Assembly (NCBI RefSeq): GCF_000317205.1
Contig: NZ_AJLK01000018.1
Span: forward strand, 1-35,421
Length of the DNA stretch: 35,421 nucleotides
Reading direction: 5' to 3'
DNA from: Fischerella muscicola PCC 7414
GTDB lineage: Bacteria > Cyanobacteriota > Cyanobacteriia > Cyanobacteriales > Nostocaceae
A program made the position numbers and the translations under genes. The notes beneath the pieces were generated by a model. It was given only the letters and a program-made list of their open reading frames with translations, was not told the origin of the DNA and did no database searches. The stretch's first letter is position 1. Every line of letters begins with the position of its first letter. Below, piece after piece: positions 12,198 to 18,911 of this stretch.

Positions 12198-12585
12198 GGA
12201 TTGGCGGACTTTGGCTTAGGTTACGAAAGTTTACATATCCTATACTCATTTTAAGATAACCCAGAATTAGCGCAAAGTTTTTCTCAGGAAGTTCCTAATT
12301 TTGGGGACAATCAAATAAAATATACTTGTACTAATTTCAGCGAAATTTACATTTTATTGATATATTTATTACACTAAGTTTTGCGTATATGTTGACTAAA
12401 TACGGTAAGTACGCAATTTTTAACAAAAAATTTATCTCTACTCTATAAAATCTTTAAGTAAAGGCGAAAAAAACTACAAAACACTACTGAGAAGTTACCT
12501 ATAAAATATTACACATAAGTTATTTCTCATATAAAGAAAAATTTCTGAAATCTCTTGTGCAATAGTTTAGAAAATTTTTGAATTA
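12198..12585. other. AT-rich upstream region of sds, no gene seen
   Basis: About 390 bp of strongly A/T-rich DNA between sds and the hairpin cluster. No open frame, ribosome site or repeat family stands out. It should contain the sds promoter near its left end. Confidence 0.5.
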
Positions 12586-12970
12586 GCACAAAAGTTGCCT
12601 GAAAAAGTCAGGGCTATTGTGTTACGCTAAAATCTAGGGATTTTAAATTTTTCAGATGTTCACCACAACAGCAAGGTAAATACCCTTTAGGTAAATTTGC
12701 TTAGGTGTTGTGAATGAACATGAATAATCGCAGGTCAAGCCAAAAATTTGATTTTTGTGCTTCGTCCTGTGGTGTGCGAACCTCCAGGTTAGGATCTGTG
12801 GATTTCCTTTAGAGGAAGCAGAGTGTTTACACATCTTCGACGCTGTTTGTGTGTCGGCGTCGCTCCTACCAATTAAAGGTACGCGTTAAATATAGCAGAC
12901 TGGGTAGACTGCTGAAGCAGTAGTTAAATTTCTTTTGGATTATTTAACTGCTGTGGTAAGTGTGGTCTGC
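12586..12970 (+). ncRNA. Candidate structured RNA: run of about eight hairpins with no gene
   Basis: Hairpins follow one another with little space. H1 12586-12622 (GCACAA/TTGTGT with inner CCTGA/TCAGG). H2 12628-12645 (TAAAATC-TAGG-GATTTTA, followed by AATTTTTC). H3 12659-12718 (TTCACCACAACA with TGTTGTGAATGAA, inner AGCAA/TTGCT). H4 12729-12771 (CGCAGG/CCTGTG, AAGC/GCTT, CAAAAAT-TTG-ATTTTTG). H5 12779-12790 (AACC/GGTT). H6 12796-12821 (TTCCT/AGGAA inside CTG/CAG). H7 12838-12862 (CGACGC/GCGTCG). H8 12895-12970 (GCAGAC/GTCTGC outside, AGTTAAAT/ATTTAACT inside). The sequence does not match what I know of RNase P RNA, tmRNA, SRP RNA, 6S RNA or Yfr1. The strand is uncertain: plus would make it a leader of, or a separate RNA before, the small gene at 13128. 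The open frame at 12652-12834 (-) is not credible. Confidence 0.4.
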
Positions 12971-13127
12971 AAAAAAATCGTACAAAACACAATCTATTTA
13001 ATTCGGAAGGACAAAAGTTCTCCCGTTAGTCTCGTATGTAATATTAAAGCCACACAAATTATGGGTGGCTGAATTCCTGCTAATTTTACTCAATTTATAT
13101 TTCTTTGGCAAAGGCACTGGTAGAAAA

Positions 13128-13325
13128 ATGATTTATGGGAAGATGCCTATGATGATCTTTATATTAGCTTCTGGATACTTGTTCACTATTTACTTGCTAT
13201 TGGCACTAGCAAAGCGAACAGGTAATAAAACAACACCTAGTAATGTTGCTTTAAATCATAAAGGAAATCATACACAGGAAGTATCGGTAACACCAAATGT
13301 CACCGAAGCCAGTAGTGTACGTTAG
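13128..13325 (+). CDS. Small membrane protein, function unknown
   Basis: A 65-residue protein with one clear TM helix (MPMMIFILASGYLFTIYLLLALAK, in two parts MPMMIFILASGYL and FTIYLLLALAK, about residues 6-29) and a polar Asn/Thr/Val-rich tail. The frame is open upstream to a GTG at 13065, which would add a second hydrophobic stretch (AEFLLILLNLYFFGKG); I choose the ATG at 13128, but neither start has a good ribosome site. From memory a small ORF also lies between murI and sds in Nostoc PCC 7120, which supports a real gene. It converges on murI across a tandem-repeat spacer. No function can be assigned. Confidence 0.5.
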   Translation: MIYGKMPMMIFILASGYLFTIYLLLALAKRTGNKTTPSNVALNHKGNHTQEVSVTPNVTEASSVR

Positions 13326-13443
13326 TCAATGGTCAATTGTCAATGGTCATTTGTTCTTTGTCATTAGTTATTAGTCAATTGTCCTTTGTAACAATTAGTA
13401 ACTATTAATCAATGACCAATGACCAATGACCAATGACCAATGA
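13326..13443. repeat. Heptanucleotide tandem repeats arranged as an inverted pair
   Basis: The left half carries GTCAATG/GTCAATT units, and the right half carries at least four perfect AATGACC units ending at the murI stop. The halves are complementary, so a long hairpin can form between the convergent small gene and murI and may act as the terminator of both. Confidence 0.8.
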
Positions 13444-14304
13444 CTAATTACTAGAAACAGCTGTATTAGATAAGCATACGACCTCAGCCATAGGAGTAAA
13501 ACCTAACCATACCGCAGATGACTCAGCAAATTGTTGTGGACAACCACTAACAACAAAGCGGGTTGGCAAAGCTGGATGGGTATTCTTAAGACCAAGTAGG
13601 TCTAACTCTTTTGCACAGGCAGCTACCACATGTACAGCCGGATCAATTAGTTTCACAGAAGTTGAAAGGAGCGATCGCAATACTGGTGCTAGGTGGGGAT
13701 AATGGGTACAGCCATAAACAAGAGTATCTATTTGCTGTTGTACTAAAGGCTCTAAATAGGAACGTGCCACTTCAACTGTGTAGGGGTCATGAATGCGATT
13801 TTGCTCTATTAGCGGCACAAATTCCGGGCAACCAACCTGCCAAACCTGGACATCGGGATTTATTTCAATAATAGCACGCTTGTAAGCATTGCTCTTAGCG
13901 GTTGCGGGAGTGGCAATTACACCTATGCGCTTTCCTTGCTGCACTGCTGCCCTTGCTCCTGGTAGAATCAGCCCCAGAATTGGCATGGGAAATTCCTCCC
14001 GTACTATCTCTAGCGCTAGGGCAGAACTGGTGTTGCAAGCCATAATCACCATTTTCACCTGTTGCTGTTGCATCCAAGTGAGTATTTCTCGGACAAACTG
14101 GAGAATTTCTGCTTGGGAACGAATGCCATAGGGAAGTCTAGCTGTATCGCCAAAATAAATAATTGATTCATTTGGGAGTTGGCGATAGAGTTGCCGCAGT
14201 ACCGTCAGTCCACCCACACCACTATCAAAAATACCAATTGGCGCACGCTGGGGTTCTTGGGAGAAATCGTATAGATTGCCTTCAAACTGAGAAGATGAAA
14301 TCAC
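13444..14304 (-). CDS. murI: Glutamate racemase
   Basis: MurI makes D-glutamate for peptidoglycan by a cofactor-free two-cysteine mechanism. The 286-residue protein has the Asp27-Ser28 motif in GIFDSGVGGLTVLRQL, the segment IIYFGDTARLPYG (48-60), the first catalytic cysteine Cys90 in MACNTSSA and the second, Cys199, in VYGCTHYPHL. Length is normal. The first codon is the GTG at 14304 (start of ISSSQFEGNLYDFSQEPQ); the family core begins only at residue 21, so the exact start is uncertain and no strong ribosome site is visible. It lies downstream of the two amidase genes on the same strand, a coherent cell-wall group. Confidence 0.95.
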   Translation of the reverse strand: MISSSQFEGNLYDFSQEPQRAPIGIFDSGVGGLTVLRQLYRQLPNESIIYFGDTARLPYGIRSQAEILQFVREILTWMQQQQVKMVIMACNTSSALALEIVREEFPMPILGLILPGARAAVQQGKRIGVIATPATAKSNAYKRAIIEINPDVQVWQVGCPEFVPLIEQNRIHDPYTVEVARSYLEPLVQQQIDTLVYGCTHYPHLAPVLRSLLSTSVKLIDPAVHVVAACAKELDLLGLKNTHPALPTRFVVSGCPQQFAESSAVWLGFTPMAEVVCLSNTAVSSN

Positions 14305-14375
14305 AGGCAGAATTTGATGTCAGTATTGCGATATTTAAGATACAGGATTTTGTAACAATTTGTTCATAGTTGATT

Positions 14376-14698
14376 GTTGGTGGTTGATGGTTGGTAGTTG
14401 TTAGTTCTTTGTCAAGGCAACTTTGTGGGGTAGAGTCATAAACCGCCCTCCGGGTACTCTTACCTTGAAGCCGCGCAAAGCGCGTCTACGCCACCTTGCC
14501 AACCCTTACGGGAAGCCACTACGTGTCTACGTGACGGAGACCGCCAAGAGCGGCAAGTGGACTCACCAAGACGCCAAGTGCGCCAAGAACAAGAGAAAAA
14601 GAGAATTTGAGAAGTTAATTCACCTGGCAAAGTTGGTGTGACAGAGTACTAGTTACGGCACTCAAACAACAAACAACAAACAACAATTAACTACACTT
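14376..14698. repeat. Spacer of dispersed repeats between amiC2 and murI
   Basis: The stretch is a mosaic. It has GTTGATG/GTTGGTG units at 14370-14400, then the Nostocales short dispersed repeat marked by GCGCGTCTACGCC (about 14470) and TTACGGGAAGCC (about 14503). These are followed by text of the ACCAAGACGCCAAG type (14567-14580) and AACAAAC units at 14664-14690. The open frame at 14423-14641 is made of these repeats and is not a gene. Confidence 0.75.
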
Positions 14699-16549
14699 CT
14701 ATCTTTGCTGTAAGTATTGGAGTATACCACCAGCAATGCCTTCTGCCATACGATTTTGATATTCGGGGTTTCCTAGTCTAGGGTTGTCCTCCCGACCAGT
14801 CATATAACCTGTTTCTACTAATATTGAGGGCATAGAGCTTTTTCTAAGGACGTAAAATCTGGCTTTCCTGACACCCCGGTCTTTGAGAGTACCTATTTTA
14901 CTAAGAATAGAATTGTGAACTACTTGCGCCAAGCGGTAGCCACTGTCGTAATAGTAAGTTTCTAGACCATTTACCTCGGGGCGTTGTCCCACGGAATTGG
15001 CGTGAATGCTAACAAACAAAGTGGCATTAGCACGCTCTGCAATATTTACCCTTCCCTGTAATTCTACAAAATAGTCAGAATCACGCGTCAAAATAGCTTG
15101 ATAGCCATTTTGTTCCAAAATAGCTGCGACTCTTCTCCCAATAGGCAGAACTACATCTTTTTCTAACAGTCCACCTATTCCTGGCGCGCCGGGGTCTTTA
15201 CCACCGTGTCCGGGGTCAACGACTATTACTACTCGTCCTCTAGGCGCTGGACGTGGTGGTTGTGTCTTTGGTATACCGTCGGGATTATTGGCGTTTGGTA
15301 CTGGTAATGGTTGTGGGTCTGCTTGTGGTAGGGGAGGTAACACAACAGAGGCACGATTACGTTGTAGGTCTACAGAGACAAATTGATCATCAATTTGGTT
15401 AACAGGCCCAATTTGTACTCCAGAAGCGGGTTGGACGTAAACAACAACAGTATTAGAGTCTTGTTGTTGCAAGCGCACCCGGAGGATGGGGCTGTTTGCA
15501 TCCATGACTGGGCCTTTGACAGGTGTAGACAACTTGGCATTGGGAATGGTGATGCGGAACAAACCGGAGGATCTATCCCAACCACCACTTGCAGTTAAAT
15601 TGCGATCGCCTTTAATAATTAATTGTCTGCCAGTAGCACTGAGTTCCACAGCTTGAATTGTGGCCACATCATTGGTAACAATGGGTGAAGGGCTGGGATT
15701 ATTAGCTAAATTACCTCCTGGTAATCTAGTGACGCCACTATTAGGTAAAATCACTAAACCACCAATCGCACTGGTACTTGCCCGCCAATCAGGACTGCTC
15801 TTATTTACTCGCATTGTCATGCGGACTGTGGGTGGTGTAGTTGCCAGTTGAGTGAATTGGATACTGCCAACACCGTAGCGATTCACATTTACATTCTGCT
15901 GTACTAACTTAGGTGATAAAGTGGCGCCAGCAATATCAATATCAACCGTGCTTTTGTCTTGACTACGATTTACCTGTATTTGGGGACGGCTACCACTAGT
16001 GCGAACAAAAAATCCATCTCCTGTGACTCTCAAGCTTTCTATTTGTGTTGTGCCAGTATTGGCACTAACCAATGTTCCTTTATTTGCAGGAGGAGTATTA
16101 GGTTTGTCTGGAGTCACCACACTATAGATATTTCTAGTAGTGGTAGCAACTTCCTGTCGTTTGGGCTGTGGTAATTGCACCTGCCAGCGACTAGCTGTAA
16201 CTCCTTCAAATTTTACTTGTTGGGGGTCGAGGGTATAACCAGGAGTCAGTTCAACTACTACCCTTGTGGTTTGGGGGTCAAACTGGCCGATACGGATAGC
16301 ACGAATCGCACCACCAACAGACTGGACAAGTTGTGGACGCCCAAATTTAATCCCGGGTAAATCAATTACTAAGCGTGTGGGATTGAAAACAAGTTGGGCA
16401 GTGGGTTGGACAGCACCATCAGTATTAAGTTCTAATCGATTTTGATTGGCATCAAAACGCCAAGATTGTAAATTCGCTGCATTAGCAGGCGACGATAACA
16501 GGCAGATACTTAAAAAAGTAGTAGGTATCAACCAGTGGTGTAGTTTCAC
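14699..16549 (-). CDS. amiC2: N-acetylmuramoyl-L-alanine amidase with AMIN domains (AmiC2-like)
   Basis: AmiC enzymes cut the amide bond between muramic acid and L-Ala. In filamentous cyanobacteria AmiC2 makes the nanopores in septal peptidoglycan used for cell-cell communication. The 616-residue product has a signal peptide ending near SPANA, AMIN-type beta domains (first about 25-125, a second before the linker), a Pro-rich linker (LPQADPQPLPVPNANNPDG) and an Amidase_3 domain with zinc ligands in VDPGHGGKDPGA (His), LLEKDVVLP (Glu) and FVSIHANS (His), plus the catalytic ILVETGYMTG (Glu). The frame extends to 16612, but the GTG at 16549 is preferred: AGGAG lies 7 nt before it, and the paralogue starts at the same place. 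It is the downstream copy of a tandem pair, about 460 bp after amiC1. Confidence 0.9.
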   Translation of the reverse strand: MKLHHWLIPTTFLSICLLSSPANAANLQSWRFDANQNRLELNTDGAVQPTAQLVFNPTRLVIDLPGIKFGRPQLVQSVGGAIRAIRIGQFDPQTTRVVVELTPGYTLDPQQVKFEGVTASRWQVQLPQPKRQEVATTTRNIYSVVTPDKPNTPPANKGTLVSANTGTTQIESLRVTGDGFFVRTSGSRPQIQVNRSQDKSTVDIDIAGATLSPKLVQQNVNVNRYGVGSIQFTQLATTPPTVRMTMRVNKSSPDWRASTSAIGGLVILPNSGVTRLPGGNLANNPSPSPIVTNDVATIQAVELSATGRQLIIKGDRNLTASGGWDRSSGLFRITIPNAKLSTPVKGPVMDANSPILRVRLQQQDSNTVVVYVQPASGVQIGPVNQIDDQFVSVDLQRNRASVVLPPLPQADPQPLPVPNANNPDGIPKTQPPRPAPRGRVVIVVDPGHGGKDPGAPGIGGLLEKDVVLPIGRRVAAILEQNGYQAILTRDSDYFVELQGRVNIAERANATLFVSIHANSVGQRPEVNGLETYYYDSGYRLAQVVHNSILSKIGTLKDRGVRKARFYVLRKSSMPSILVETGYMTGREDNPRLGNPEYQNRMAEGIAGGILQYLQQR

Positions 16550-17009
16550 AATTTTTCTCCTGATTGGCTTTTTAGGGGAGATGTAATTTATCAAGTGTTG
16601 GCTAAGCCTCAAATCCTCACACCGTTATCGCCCAAGTCTTAGCTTATACATTTGATGTATCGGTTTGTACTTTCTAGACAAAGATACTTTATAAAGTTAC
16701 AGCTAATGGCGTCAAAATCTAGTAAAATCTCTGAGTTTTTGCTGCGGCGATCACAGAAAAAACTGTCTGGTAATAGCAGCAAATTACACCAGTATATAGA
16801 TAACCAAAACTAACTACTGTTGTTAATTTTGGTCAACAATATGGTTGGCAGCCAAAAATTTTTGTATTGTGTAGTTTCTGGTAGTTTATACATTCAGGCT
16901 GAGAGTAAAACTGGAAAATACCATAGTTTAATTGCTGAAAAAATCTTGCCGCTTCAGCATAAATACGGTAATAGCTAAGGTAATCATTTAAAGTATATTG
17001 TGATCTAAA
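16550..17009. other. Spacer between amiC1 and amiC2
   Basis: About 460 bp without a gene. It holds one clear hairpin at 16827-16857 (TTTTGG...CCAAAA with inner CAAC/GTTG on the minus strand) that could be a weak terminator for amiC1. The rest is A/T-rich and probably contains a separate amiC2 promoter. Confidence 0.45.
16557..16561 (-). promoter_or_regulatory. Ribosome binding site that fixes the amiC2 start
   Basis: AGGAG, 7 nt before GTG 16549. The paralogue amiC1 has AGGAG 8 nt before its GTG at 18911, so both genes use the same GTG-Lys-Leu-His start. Confidence 0.8.
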
Positions 17010-18911
17010 TTATCTGCGCTGAAGATACTGGAGAATACCACGCGCGATCGCCTCTGCCATTTGATTACGGTAAGATGCACTTCTTAACTTAGCCATATCC
17101 TGCCGACCAGTCATATAACCTGTTTCTACTAAAATTGAGGGCATAGAACTTTTCCGGAGAACATAAAATCTAGCCTTTCGCACTCCTCTGTCTCTAACGT
17201 TCACACTTTGCAGAATACTCCTATGCACAATACCTGCCAGACTTAAACCAGTATCGTAATAATACGTCTCCAAACCACTGACATCCGGACGACCTGCACC
17301 TGCTGAATTTGCGTGAATGCTGACAAATACATCCGCATTCACACGTTCAGCCATTTGTACTCTAGCTGGAAGAGTGACAAAGTAGTCAGAATTCCGCGTT
17401 AATACAACTTGCACGCCATTTTTTTGCAATACCTCTGCTATTTTTTTGCTGATAGGTAGAATAATATCCTTTTCTCTGGCTCCGCCAATACCAACAGCCC
17501 CTGAGTCTCTACCACCATGTCCTGGATCTATAAGAACTACCACTTTTCCCTTGACAGGACGTAACGGTGGGGGTTGATTTGGATTGGGAATTTCTGACAA
17601 AGGTTGCGGGTTCGGTCTTGGTAAAGGAGGTAAAACAACAGGCGGTGGTGTTACTCGATTTGATAATCTATTTGATGATCGGCGTAACTCTAGGGCTAAA
17701 AGCCGACCGCCTGGTTTGTTAAGTTCGCCAATTTGTATCCCTGCTGCGGGTTGAACAAAGACAACGACAGTACGGGGGTCTTGCTGTTGTAGGCGTACCC
17801 GTAAAATTGGGCTAGTGGCATTTAATTCTGGCCCTTTGACATCAGAAGCTAGGCGCGCATTGGGAATAGTGATGCGGAACAATGTAGAGGATCTATCCCA
17901 ACCAGCATTACCAGATAAAGATTGATCACTTTTAATGAGTAATTGGGTGCCATTACCAGCCAATTCTATAGATTCAATTGTGGCTAGTGAATCATTATCA
18001 TTGTCAGAGTCTCGGGAATCAGAGTTACGGAGTATTAATGGTTTTTGGTTATCGCCAAAAGAAATACTAGAATTACTGCCCCTGGGCAATTTACTCAGCA
18101 CAGCATTGGGTAAAATTACCAAACCATCCCCACCACTAACTGTTGCCCGCCAGTCGGGACTATTTCTGTTCACCCGCATTGTCAACCGAACTGTGGGTGG
18201 TGTGGTTTCGAGTTGAGAGAGTTGGATATTGCTGACACCATAGCGATTAATTGGTAAATCGCGCTGTACCAGATTTTGTGAGACAGTAGCGTTAGAGATA
18301 TCCATGTAAATGTTTGTGCGATCGCTACTGCGTCTTACCTTCACCTCTGGTTTTCTACCACTGGTGCGAACAAAAAAGCCATCTCCTGTGACGCGTAAAC
18401 TTTCAATTTGAGTCGCACCAACTGCGGTTTGAACTACCGTCTCCCTATTATTGGATGAGTTACGAGATTCGGTTTTGACCACACTGTAAAGATTTCTGTT
18501 GAGTGAGTTAGTTTCCTCACGTTTTGGTTTGGGTAATTGCACCCGCCAGCGATTAGCACTTATCCCCTCAAATTTCACCTTCTGGGGGTCAAGGGTATAA
18601 CCAGGAGTCATTTCAACTACTACCCTGGTGGTTTGGGGGTCAAACTGACCGATACGGATAGCACGAATTGCACCACCAACCGACTGGACAAGCTGTGGAC
18701 GCCCAAATTTAATCCCGGGTAAATCAATTACTAAGCGTGTGGGATTAAAAACAAGTTGGGCTGTGGGTTGGACAGCACCATCAGTGTTGATTTCTAACCG
18801 ATTTTGATTGCTATCAAAACGCCAAGATTCTAGATTCGCTGCATCAGCAGGCGACGATAAAACAGAGGAGATACTTAAGACAGTACTAGGTATCAACCAG
18901 TGTAGTTTCAC
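17010..18911 (-). CDS. amiC1: N-acetylmuramoyl-L-alanine amidase with AMIN domains (AmiC1/HcwA-like)
   Basis: A 633-residue paralogue of the next gene with the same layout: signal peptide (IPSTVLSISSVLSSPADA), AMIN-type domains that bind peptidoglycan, a Pro-rich linker, and Amidase_3. Catalytic zinc residues lie in LIDPGHGGRDSGA (His), GAREKDIILP (Glu) and FVSIHANS (His), and the catalytic Glu is in ILVETGYMTG. The start is the GTG at 18911, with AGGAG 8 nt upstream. In Nostoc PCC 7120 the first gene of this pair (alr0092, hcwA/amiC1) is needed for normal filament and heterocyst development. A Ser/Asp-rich insert (SRDSDNDND) between the AMIN regions is absent from amiC2. The ends of the two genes are nearly identical in DNA while the middles differ. 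Confidence 0.9.
   Translation of the reverse strand: MKLHWLIPSTVLSISSVLSSPADAANLESWRFDSNQNRLEINTDGAVQPTAQLVFNPTRLVIDLPGIKFGRPQLVQSVGGAIRAIRIGQFDPQTTRVVVEMTPGYTLDPQKVKFEGISANRWRVQLPKPKREETNSLNRNLYSVVKTESRNSSNNRETVVQTAVGATQIESLRVTGDGFFVRTSGRKPEVKVRRSSDRTNIYMDISNATVSQNLVQRDLPINRYGVSNIQLSQLETTPPTVRLTMRVNRNSPDWRATVSGGDGLVILPNAVLSKLPRGSNSSISFGDNQKPLILRNSDSRDSDNDNDSLATIESIELAGNGTQLLIKSDQSLSGNAGWDRSSTLFRITIPNARLASDVKGPELNATSPILRVRLQQQDPRTVVVFVQPAAGIQIGELNKPGGRLLALELRRSSNRLSNRVTPPPVVLPPLPRPNPQPLSEIPNPNQPPPLRPVKGKVVVLIDPGHGGRDSGAVGIGGAREKDIILPISKKIAEVLQKNGVQVVLTRNSDYFVTLPARVQMAERVNADVFVSIHANSAGAGRPDVSGLETYYYDTGLSLAGIVHRSILQSVNVRDRGVRKARFYVLRKSSMPSILVETGYMTGRQDMAKLRSASYRNQMAEAIARGILQYLQRR

Follow-up and report, generated by a model that had tools for sequence, protein, structure and literature searches.

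A structured RNA of about 490 nt, probably a 5' leader, between sds and a small membrane-protein gene in Fischerella and other Nostocaceae

The locus in Fischerella muscicola

The window (the whole stretch of DNA analysed, 35,421 nucleotides of Fischerella muscicola PCC 7414) contains, between the divergent gene sds and a small gene that starts at 13128, a hairpin-rich stretch which a sequence-only reading had picked out as a candidate structured RNA. The features discussed below are collected in Table 1. Heptad tandem repeats (GTCAATG / CAATGAC) lie at 13323-13453, between the small gene and murI, and the two genes beyond murI encode AMIN and Amidase_3 domains.

Table 1. Coordinates of the features of the locus. 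Positions are those of the window; the two strands of a stem are separated by a slash.
Feature	Position	Strand	Basis
Promoter-like block, nearly invariant (AGAAAATTTnAAATTTAGC ... TTGTGTTACGCTAAAATC)	12569..12635	+	column conservation in 81 sequences
Candidate extended -10, TGTTACGCT (TGnTAnnnT)	12620..12628	+	nearly invariant; within core TTGTGTTACGCTAAAATC
Structured body of the putative leader, four covarying domains	12636..12976	+	67 pairs, covariation
Domain A, hairpin	12658..12715 (outer stem 12658-12663/12710-12715, inner stem 12675-12685/12690-12701)	+	helices 1 and 2: 10 of 16 pairs changed on both sides
Domain B, hairpin	12727..12773 (12727-12733/12767-12773, inner stem 12743-12747/12752-12756)	+	helices 3 and 4: 12 of 12 pairs changed on both sides
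Domain C, variable multi-stem	12781..12879 (closed by 12781-12782/12878-12879 and 12792-12796/12862-12866)	+	helices 5-9
Domain D, 3' domain: GCAGAC...GUCUGC closure and inner long stem	12894..12971	+	helices 10-14; model R2
Tail hairpin X	13002..13025	+	6 of 8 pairs changed on both sides; 76.5% paired
Tail hairpin Y (CAGCCA-CAAG ... CTTG-TGGCTG in relatives)	13047..13071	+	6 of 10 pairs changed on both sides; 88.7% and 90.4% paired
Helix Z, around the likely ribosome-binding region	13074..13126 (13074-13081/13119-13126)	+	83.4% paired
Small gene, predicted one-helix membrane protein, 65 aa	13128..13325	+	profile kept downstream of core; helix read from sequence

The minimum free energy of 12586-12970 on the + strand is -128.8 kcal/mol, against a mean of -97.9 for shuffled sequences (z -5.24; none of 100 shuffles was equal). 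With z -6.52 the reverse strand folds well too, and single-sequence folding therefore does not give the strand. The corresponding values are z -5.91 for 12636-12974 (+) and z -5.75 for the entire leader, 12636-13135. GC content is 0.39-0.44 within the stretch, compared with 0.26-0.30 upstream and about 0.35 downstream, so that the stretch is less A/T-rich than its flanks. The earlier description of its composition as less skewed is correct in this sense, but the GC skew itself, at about +0.15 to +0.17, is higher inside than in the flanks.

Within its own genome 12586-12970 is single copy (next matches at E > 0.1), the region contains only short two-copy matches, and blastn found no match to the stretch in plasmids or phages. 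A mobile or repeated element was rejected on these grounds.

Rfam 15 has no family that matches the window at its gathering score, and a search of 12500-13130 at E values up to 10 gave seven matches, all far under the gathering score. The OLE covariance model of Rfam 15 matched neither the window nor, at E up to 10, 12500-13130. The covariance search that had been suggested therefore places the stretch in no Rfam family, and agrees with the earlier judgement that it is not RNase P, tmRNA, SRP or 6S RNA. RNase P RNA and 6S RNA were located on other contigs of the same genome, and these two identities were rejected for that reason; a tRNA or tmRNA identity, searched for across the window, was rejected as well. 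An RNA of the HEARO/OMEGA kind had also been proposed. This finds no support, since there is no Rfam match, the stretch is single copy in a fixed synteny, and it is flanked directly by sds and the small gene, with murI and two amidase genes farther out. No nuclease domain, such as an adjacent IscB- or TnpB-type gene would encode, was found in the nine neighbouring proteins scanned.

Covarying structure in the Nostocaceae

Ninety Nostocaceae loci were collected (the window included), of which 81 entered the long alignment; four with a long insert and five without a 3' match were left out. Non-redundant subsets comprise 61 (A1), 49 (A2), 48 (A4) and 47 (A6) sequences. The aligned stretch measures 414-452 nt in 70 of the 81 members, though its middle diverges. 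In L033, L035, L037 and L040 there are about 300 extra bases between domains C and D; three of these genomes were searched for a copy of the extra bases, which revealed no second full copy and, in two of them, pieces of 41-64 nt.

The structure of the body was drawn from the pair probabilities of sequences that include those of A4, and is therefore favoured in a comparison with slid versions of itself: 83.1% of cells are paired, against 35.9-44.7%, and the covariation is 0.276, against 0.091-0.115. It has 198 double-changed cells and 46 double-changed pairs, with at least one such pair in each of the 14 helices. The slid control at -1 also has 46 double-changed pairs, with fewer such cells (113 against 198). 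None of the measures was reached in any of 500 shuffles (0/500), a test which, as the tool itself warns, is inflated by relatedness. In a plain ranking by mutual information, clade effects swamped the signal. Domain C is weaker than the other domains (42.9-81.0% of cells paired), while the closing stem of domain D is 94.0% paired, its outermost pair being UA in 17 sequences and CG in 16.

Over the 67 pairs there are 418 G-U cells against 140 A-C cells, which indicates the + strand. The mean pair probabilities of the 81 sequences, as summed column maxima, give 107 for + and 82 for -. An RNA from the reverse strand was rejected: that strand folds well alone, yet both the conserved pairing and the wobble counts favour +.

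A terminator-like hairpin at 12907-12925, with the tail AAATTTCTTT, lies inside domain D. Within 12895-12971, GCAGAC and GUAGAC are both able to pair with GUCUGC, and by eye GCAGU can pair with ACUGC on either side. These alternative pairings and the terminator-like hairpin could together form a switch.

Conserved structure continues downstream of domain D. In A6, which covers hairpins X and Y and helix Z, 83.6% of cells are paired, against 36-46% in slid versions, and the covariation of 0.213 is reached by none of 500 shuffles (0.161); the double-changed pairs, 13 against 10.8 in shuffles (79 of 500), do not stand out. Helix Z encloses a loop of 37 nt, and its 3' strand stops one base short of the ATG. 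It has one double-changed pair, the rest being one-sided G-U changes. Covarying structure on the sense strand extends up to the start codon within the Nostocaceae, where the pairing of helix Z has moderate support and may play a role in translation. A simple pattern located the start of the small gene in 72 of the 90 loci, and in 70 of these domain D and the ATG are 158-177 nt apart, a figure that includes 12 nt of the ORF. Between 12970 and 13128 the scan for terminator-like sites lists none.

The most conserved block of all is 12569-12635. The TGnTAnnnT in TGTTACGCT we take to be an extended -10 motif. The core, TTGTGnTAnnCT...TARGGATTT (TTGTGnTAnnCTA...TARGGATTT), keeps a near-constant spacing in related loci of other families, and TTGTGTTACGCTAAAATC is unique in its own genome save for one match with three mismatches. 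The block is more likely a promoter than part of the RNA, with a start site estimated at about 12634-12637. This proposed promoter is absent from the list of a sigma-70 scan that depends on a -35 hexamer.

The hairpins within 12586-12645 have six double-changed pairs, against 5.0 in shuffles (reached in 171 of 500); their pair types were reached by 166 of 500 shuffles, and their covariation score, marginally above the shuffles, by 26 of 500. Against their slid versions they do better, with 72.8% of cells paired (33.7-51.3% slid) and a covariation of 0.133 (0.059-0.096 slid), as tends to happen when a structure is taken from the window itself. The short hairpin at 12628-12645 is 88% paired but almost invariant, and may yet be genuine. 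RNAalifold found no pair in A2, which is weak evidence because A2 includes domain A, which covaries in A4. Since the first hairpins do not beat shuffles in double-changed pairs or pair types and covary little, a structured RNA starting at 12586 was rejected. The proposal of a structured RNA at 12586-12970 is therefore upheld by its folding and covariation, but with different borders: roughly 50 bases at its 5' end are more likely promoter, and the conserved structure runs past 12970 to the ATG at 13128.

Distribution and the partner gene

R1, which models the sequence of the 5' block from 49 examples, has matches at E <= 0.01 in 110 of the 388 genomes that represent the order. These comprise 69 of the 71 Nostocaceae genomes listed, two being without a match, and 41 genomes of other families, with weaker E values (4.9e-8 to 0.0099). 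A lack of conservation outside the species, which would have refuted the sequence-only reading, is not what is seen; the conservation and the covariation support its candidate structured RNA, as one without an Rfam family. The core pattern was also scanned over 84,980 species genomes. It was found at at least 80 loci, of which those listed all carry cyanobacterial titles, nearly all of them from heterocyst-forming genera.

All 29 close loci (L021-L049) have murI and the small gene, and 28 have sds, L036 stopping at a contig edge. The regions of 40 weaker R1 matches were then examined, 31 of the 41 outside the Nostocaceae and nine inside, and the weak matches are regarded as confirmed because the synteny is kept. 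sds is found in the fetched DNA of 36 of the 40, mostly adjoining the match (about 1.5 kb off in L237), and is absent from that of L246, L247, L248 and L256. The last is a Nostocaceae locus with the small gene and murI. The other three have neither sds nor the small gene in the fetched DNA and are probably false matches, kept nevertheless in the denominator of 40.

The small gene was located with a profile of 24 sequences (A5). It lies on the same strand, 305-1133 nt downstream of the core, in 37 of the 40 loci, each at E < 1e-10; 14 of these loci had contributed to A5 and match it by construction, and 23 had not. Outside the Nostocaceae the gene follows the core in 28 of 31. It is therefore a constant downstream partner of the core. 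sds and murI are less constant: L252/L253 have no murI in the fetched stretch and L292 has neither sds nor murI, and in each case the core and the small gene remain.

These counts bear on the suggestion that the RNA stands alone. It could be a trans-acting or scaffold non-coding RNA of about 340 nt (12636-12974), cut off by processing or termination ahead of the small gene, with that gene conserved next to it only through a shared promoter and synteny. The strong stem with which domain D shuts the body would suit such an RNA, as would the narrow range of aligned length despite the diverging middle and the terminator-like hairpin inside domain D. However, conserved structure spans the 150 nt that separate domain D from the ATG, the bases after domain D are A rather than U, no terminator-like site is listed from 12970 as far as 13128, and the small gene is present in 37 of the 40 core loci. 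We therefore consider a stand-alone RNA unlikely.

In aligned members of other families the small protein has 37-45 aa. It follows the pattern M-x-[YF]-x-x-MP-[LM]-x-I and has one hydrophobic stretch and then a short tail. Pfam, NCBIfam and PDB gave no usable match, the best isolated Pfam value being 0.0022, in one of 24 members. The profile matches 76 of 292 genomes of a phylum sample at E <= 0.001. Among 20 further phylum-wide loci found via the protein, sds is in the fetched DNA of 18, and a simple pattern recognised a TTGTGnTA core in seven, 386-794 nt upstream, of which only L295 is outside the order. The leader and the small gene thus appear to occur in several families of the order, plus one locus beyond. 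The family is one of uncharacterised small membrane proteins, and its gene usually adjoins sds in the cyanobacteria examined. Gene order suggests that the small gene is probably asl0095 of Nostoc sp. PCC 7120, which in the open-access literature searched is mentioned only in PMC10406281, where its product is called hypothetical and a FurC site is predicted for it.

The position of murI (13444-14304, minus strand), convergent to the small gene and followed by the two amidase genes, raises the question of antisense transcription. In Nostoc PCC 7120, amiC1, amiC2 and murI are alr0092-alr0094 (PMC8472315), and strand-specific RNA-seq of that strain gave antisense reads from alr0091 to alr0094, described as a potential noncoding RNA (PMC3141674). 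Their direction matches that of the leader, which the paper does not name. The main product could then be a long promoter-driven transcript that traverses the small gene, continues antisense to murI and both amidase genes and regulates these cell-wall genes, with the leader and the small ORF as passengers. This is highly improbable: murI was not found in the fetched stretch of L252/L253 or of several more distant loci such as L295 and L296, yet the small gene is kept in all of these, and the covarying leader and the conserved protein would be left unexplained. The PCC 7120 reads could correspond to run-on from the leader and small gene into murI and the two AMIN/Amidase_3 genes (13444-18911, minus strand).

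Leaders from other families were analysed separately. A simple pattern delimited 28 leaders from core to ATG (the window included); seven of them are long (669-1070 nt), and the remaining 21 were folded and compared with 30 shuffles apiece. Eighteen of the folded leaders come from outside the Nostocaceae; 16 of these have z values of -1.95 to -7.0, and the other two, L223 (z -0.96) and L237 (z 0.22), are not clearly better than shuffles. The consensus fold over the 18-leader set of all families was 0, with no shared structure aligned; a consensus fold did emerge in small subsets (seven leaders of f33 and four of f12), where the + strand gave a better one than the - strand. The domain D model, R2, matches none of the 31 loci outside the Nostocaceae and misses two of the nine inside. 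As the leaders do not align into one structure, what is conserved across families is the promoter core, a long leader and the gene. Conservation beyond the Nostocaceae may be limited to the promoter, a folded leader and the gene, the detailed fold being that of the Nostocaceae.

A probable cis-acting leader and related systems

Conservation, structure, strand and a constant partner gene have all been observed. On the basis of these observations, we think it probable that the RNA is a structured 5' leader of about 490 nt that controls the small gene, and from them we infer the transcript, its start site and translational control. Several lines of evidence argue for this. The small gene is on the same strand in nearly all core loci, and sds or murI may be absent while the core and the small gene remain; domain D keeps a nearly constant distance from the ATG, and covarying hairpins come close to the ATG; the body covaries with an excess of G-U over A-C cells, the leaders of other families mostly fold well, and no terminator-like site is listed downstream of domain D. 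The antisense reads over alr0091-alr0094, being transcription in the direction of the leader, give further support. Of the three options offered by the sequence-only reading, a long leader of the gene at 13128 is therefore the best supported, because the gene follows in 37 of 40 loci and the structure runs to the ATG; a wholly stand-alone RNA has less support.

The leader would work as follows. A conserved promoter just downstream of the divergent sds would start a transcript near 12636. Its first 490 nt or so would form the structured 5' leader, with four domains, two hairpins and a helix around the ribosome-binding region, and the coding part for the tiny membrane protein would follow at 13128 in the same message. 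The leader would most likely act in cis and fold while being made. Alternative folds, or folds stabilised by a ligand or protein, could then open or close the start region at helix Z and so set the level of the small protein, with attenuation through the terminator-like hairpin in domain D as a possible second layer.

Some observations count against the leader. The proposed promoter escapes the sigma-70 scan, and the hairpin at 12907-12925 could end the transcript early. The leaders of other families do not align with it, two of them fold poorly (L223 and L237) and seven are long. Helix Z has a single double-changed pair, A6 has 13 such pairs against 10.8 in shuffles, and the slid control at -1 reaches 46. 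Finally, the simple pattern found the core in only 7 of the 20 loci found via the small gene.

The RNA and the protein might instead form a pair like that of OLE, in which a large ornate RNA and a membrane protein encoded downstream make up a ribonucleoprotein at the membrane. The core and the gene do occur together in 37 of the 40 core loci, the RNA is large and has several domains, and OLE RNA has a membrane protein partner, OapA (PMC12286853). Against this, neither OLE nor another Rfam family matches, the partner has only 37-65 aa and one predicted helix, and the RNA body cannot be aligned outside the Nostocaceae though the protein can, unlike an RNA that is itself the machine. Such a pair is very unlikely. 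A broader speculation, also quite improbable, is that the RNA of about 490 nt and the tiny membrane protein are an ancient cyanobacterial pair that act together, the RNA binding the protein or delivering it at the membrane; the RNA body would evolve fast under structural constraint, and the promoter and protein would be fixed across the order and perhaps beyond.

The open-access literature searched contains no description of an RNA at 12636-13128. Locus terms were looked up in PMC11288750, PMC12157317, PMC10287535 and PMC11332333, which gave nothing on the locus. The main texts of two ncRNA screens (PMC11109978 and PMC8632094) do not mention murI, Anabaena or Synechococcus, and in them the string 'cyanobacteri' occurs only in one reference of PMC8632094. 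The sRNA screen of PMC4734099 took only segments of 45-350 nt with a predicted terminator at the end, and its selected Table 1 has no entry from 39081 to 268249, where alr0094 should lie judging from its gene number.

What emerges is a long structured RNA that occurs together with a small membrane protein across many cyanobacteria, usually beside sds; no description of either was found in the literature searched. A leader so conserved and costly implies tight control of the small protein, on which the same search found no study. Close relatives occur in heterocyst-forming cyanobacteria, the clade of Nostoc sp. PCC 7120, and the function is therefore directly testable.

Three known systems invite comparison. 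OLE lies near isoprenoid-synthesis genes, much as the leader here adjoins sds. The likeness to OLE RNA and OapA of the Bacillota is that of a large multi-domain RNA with a membrane-protein partner (PMC12286853), the gene of the membrane protein being adjacent here. The differences are that the present RNA has no similarity in Rfam, a far smaller partner, a body that cannot be aligned across the order and a membrane location that is hypothetical. The sRNAs of heterocystous cyanobacteria NsiR3, NsiR8, NsiR9, 268249f and 2462444f (PMC4734099) resemble it in being conserved in heterocyst-forming cyanobacteria, and some are 250-350 nt long. From structured 5' leaders and orphan riboswitch candidates it differs in having no ligand or known aptamer, an unusual length of about 490 nt, a tiny orphan membrane protein gene and no match in Rfam 15. 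With these it shares a long covarying RNA upstream of, and co-oriented with, one conserved gene, a helix adjoining the start codon and, in domain D, a terminator-like hairpin.
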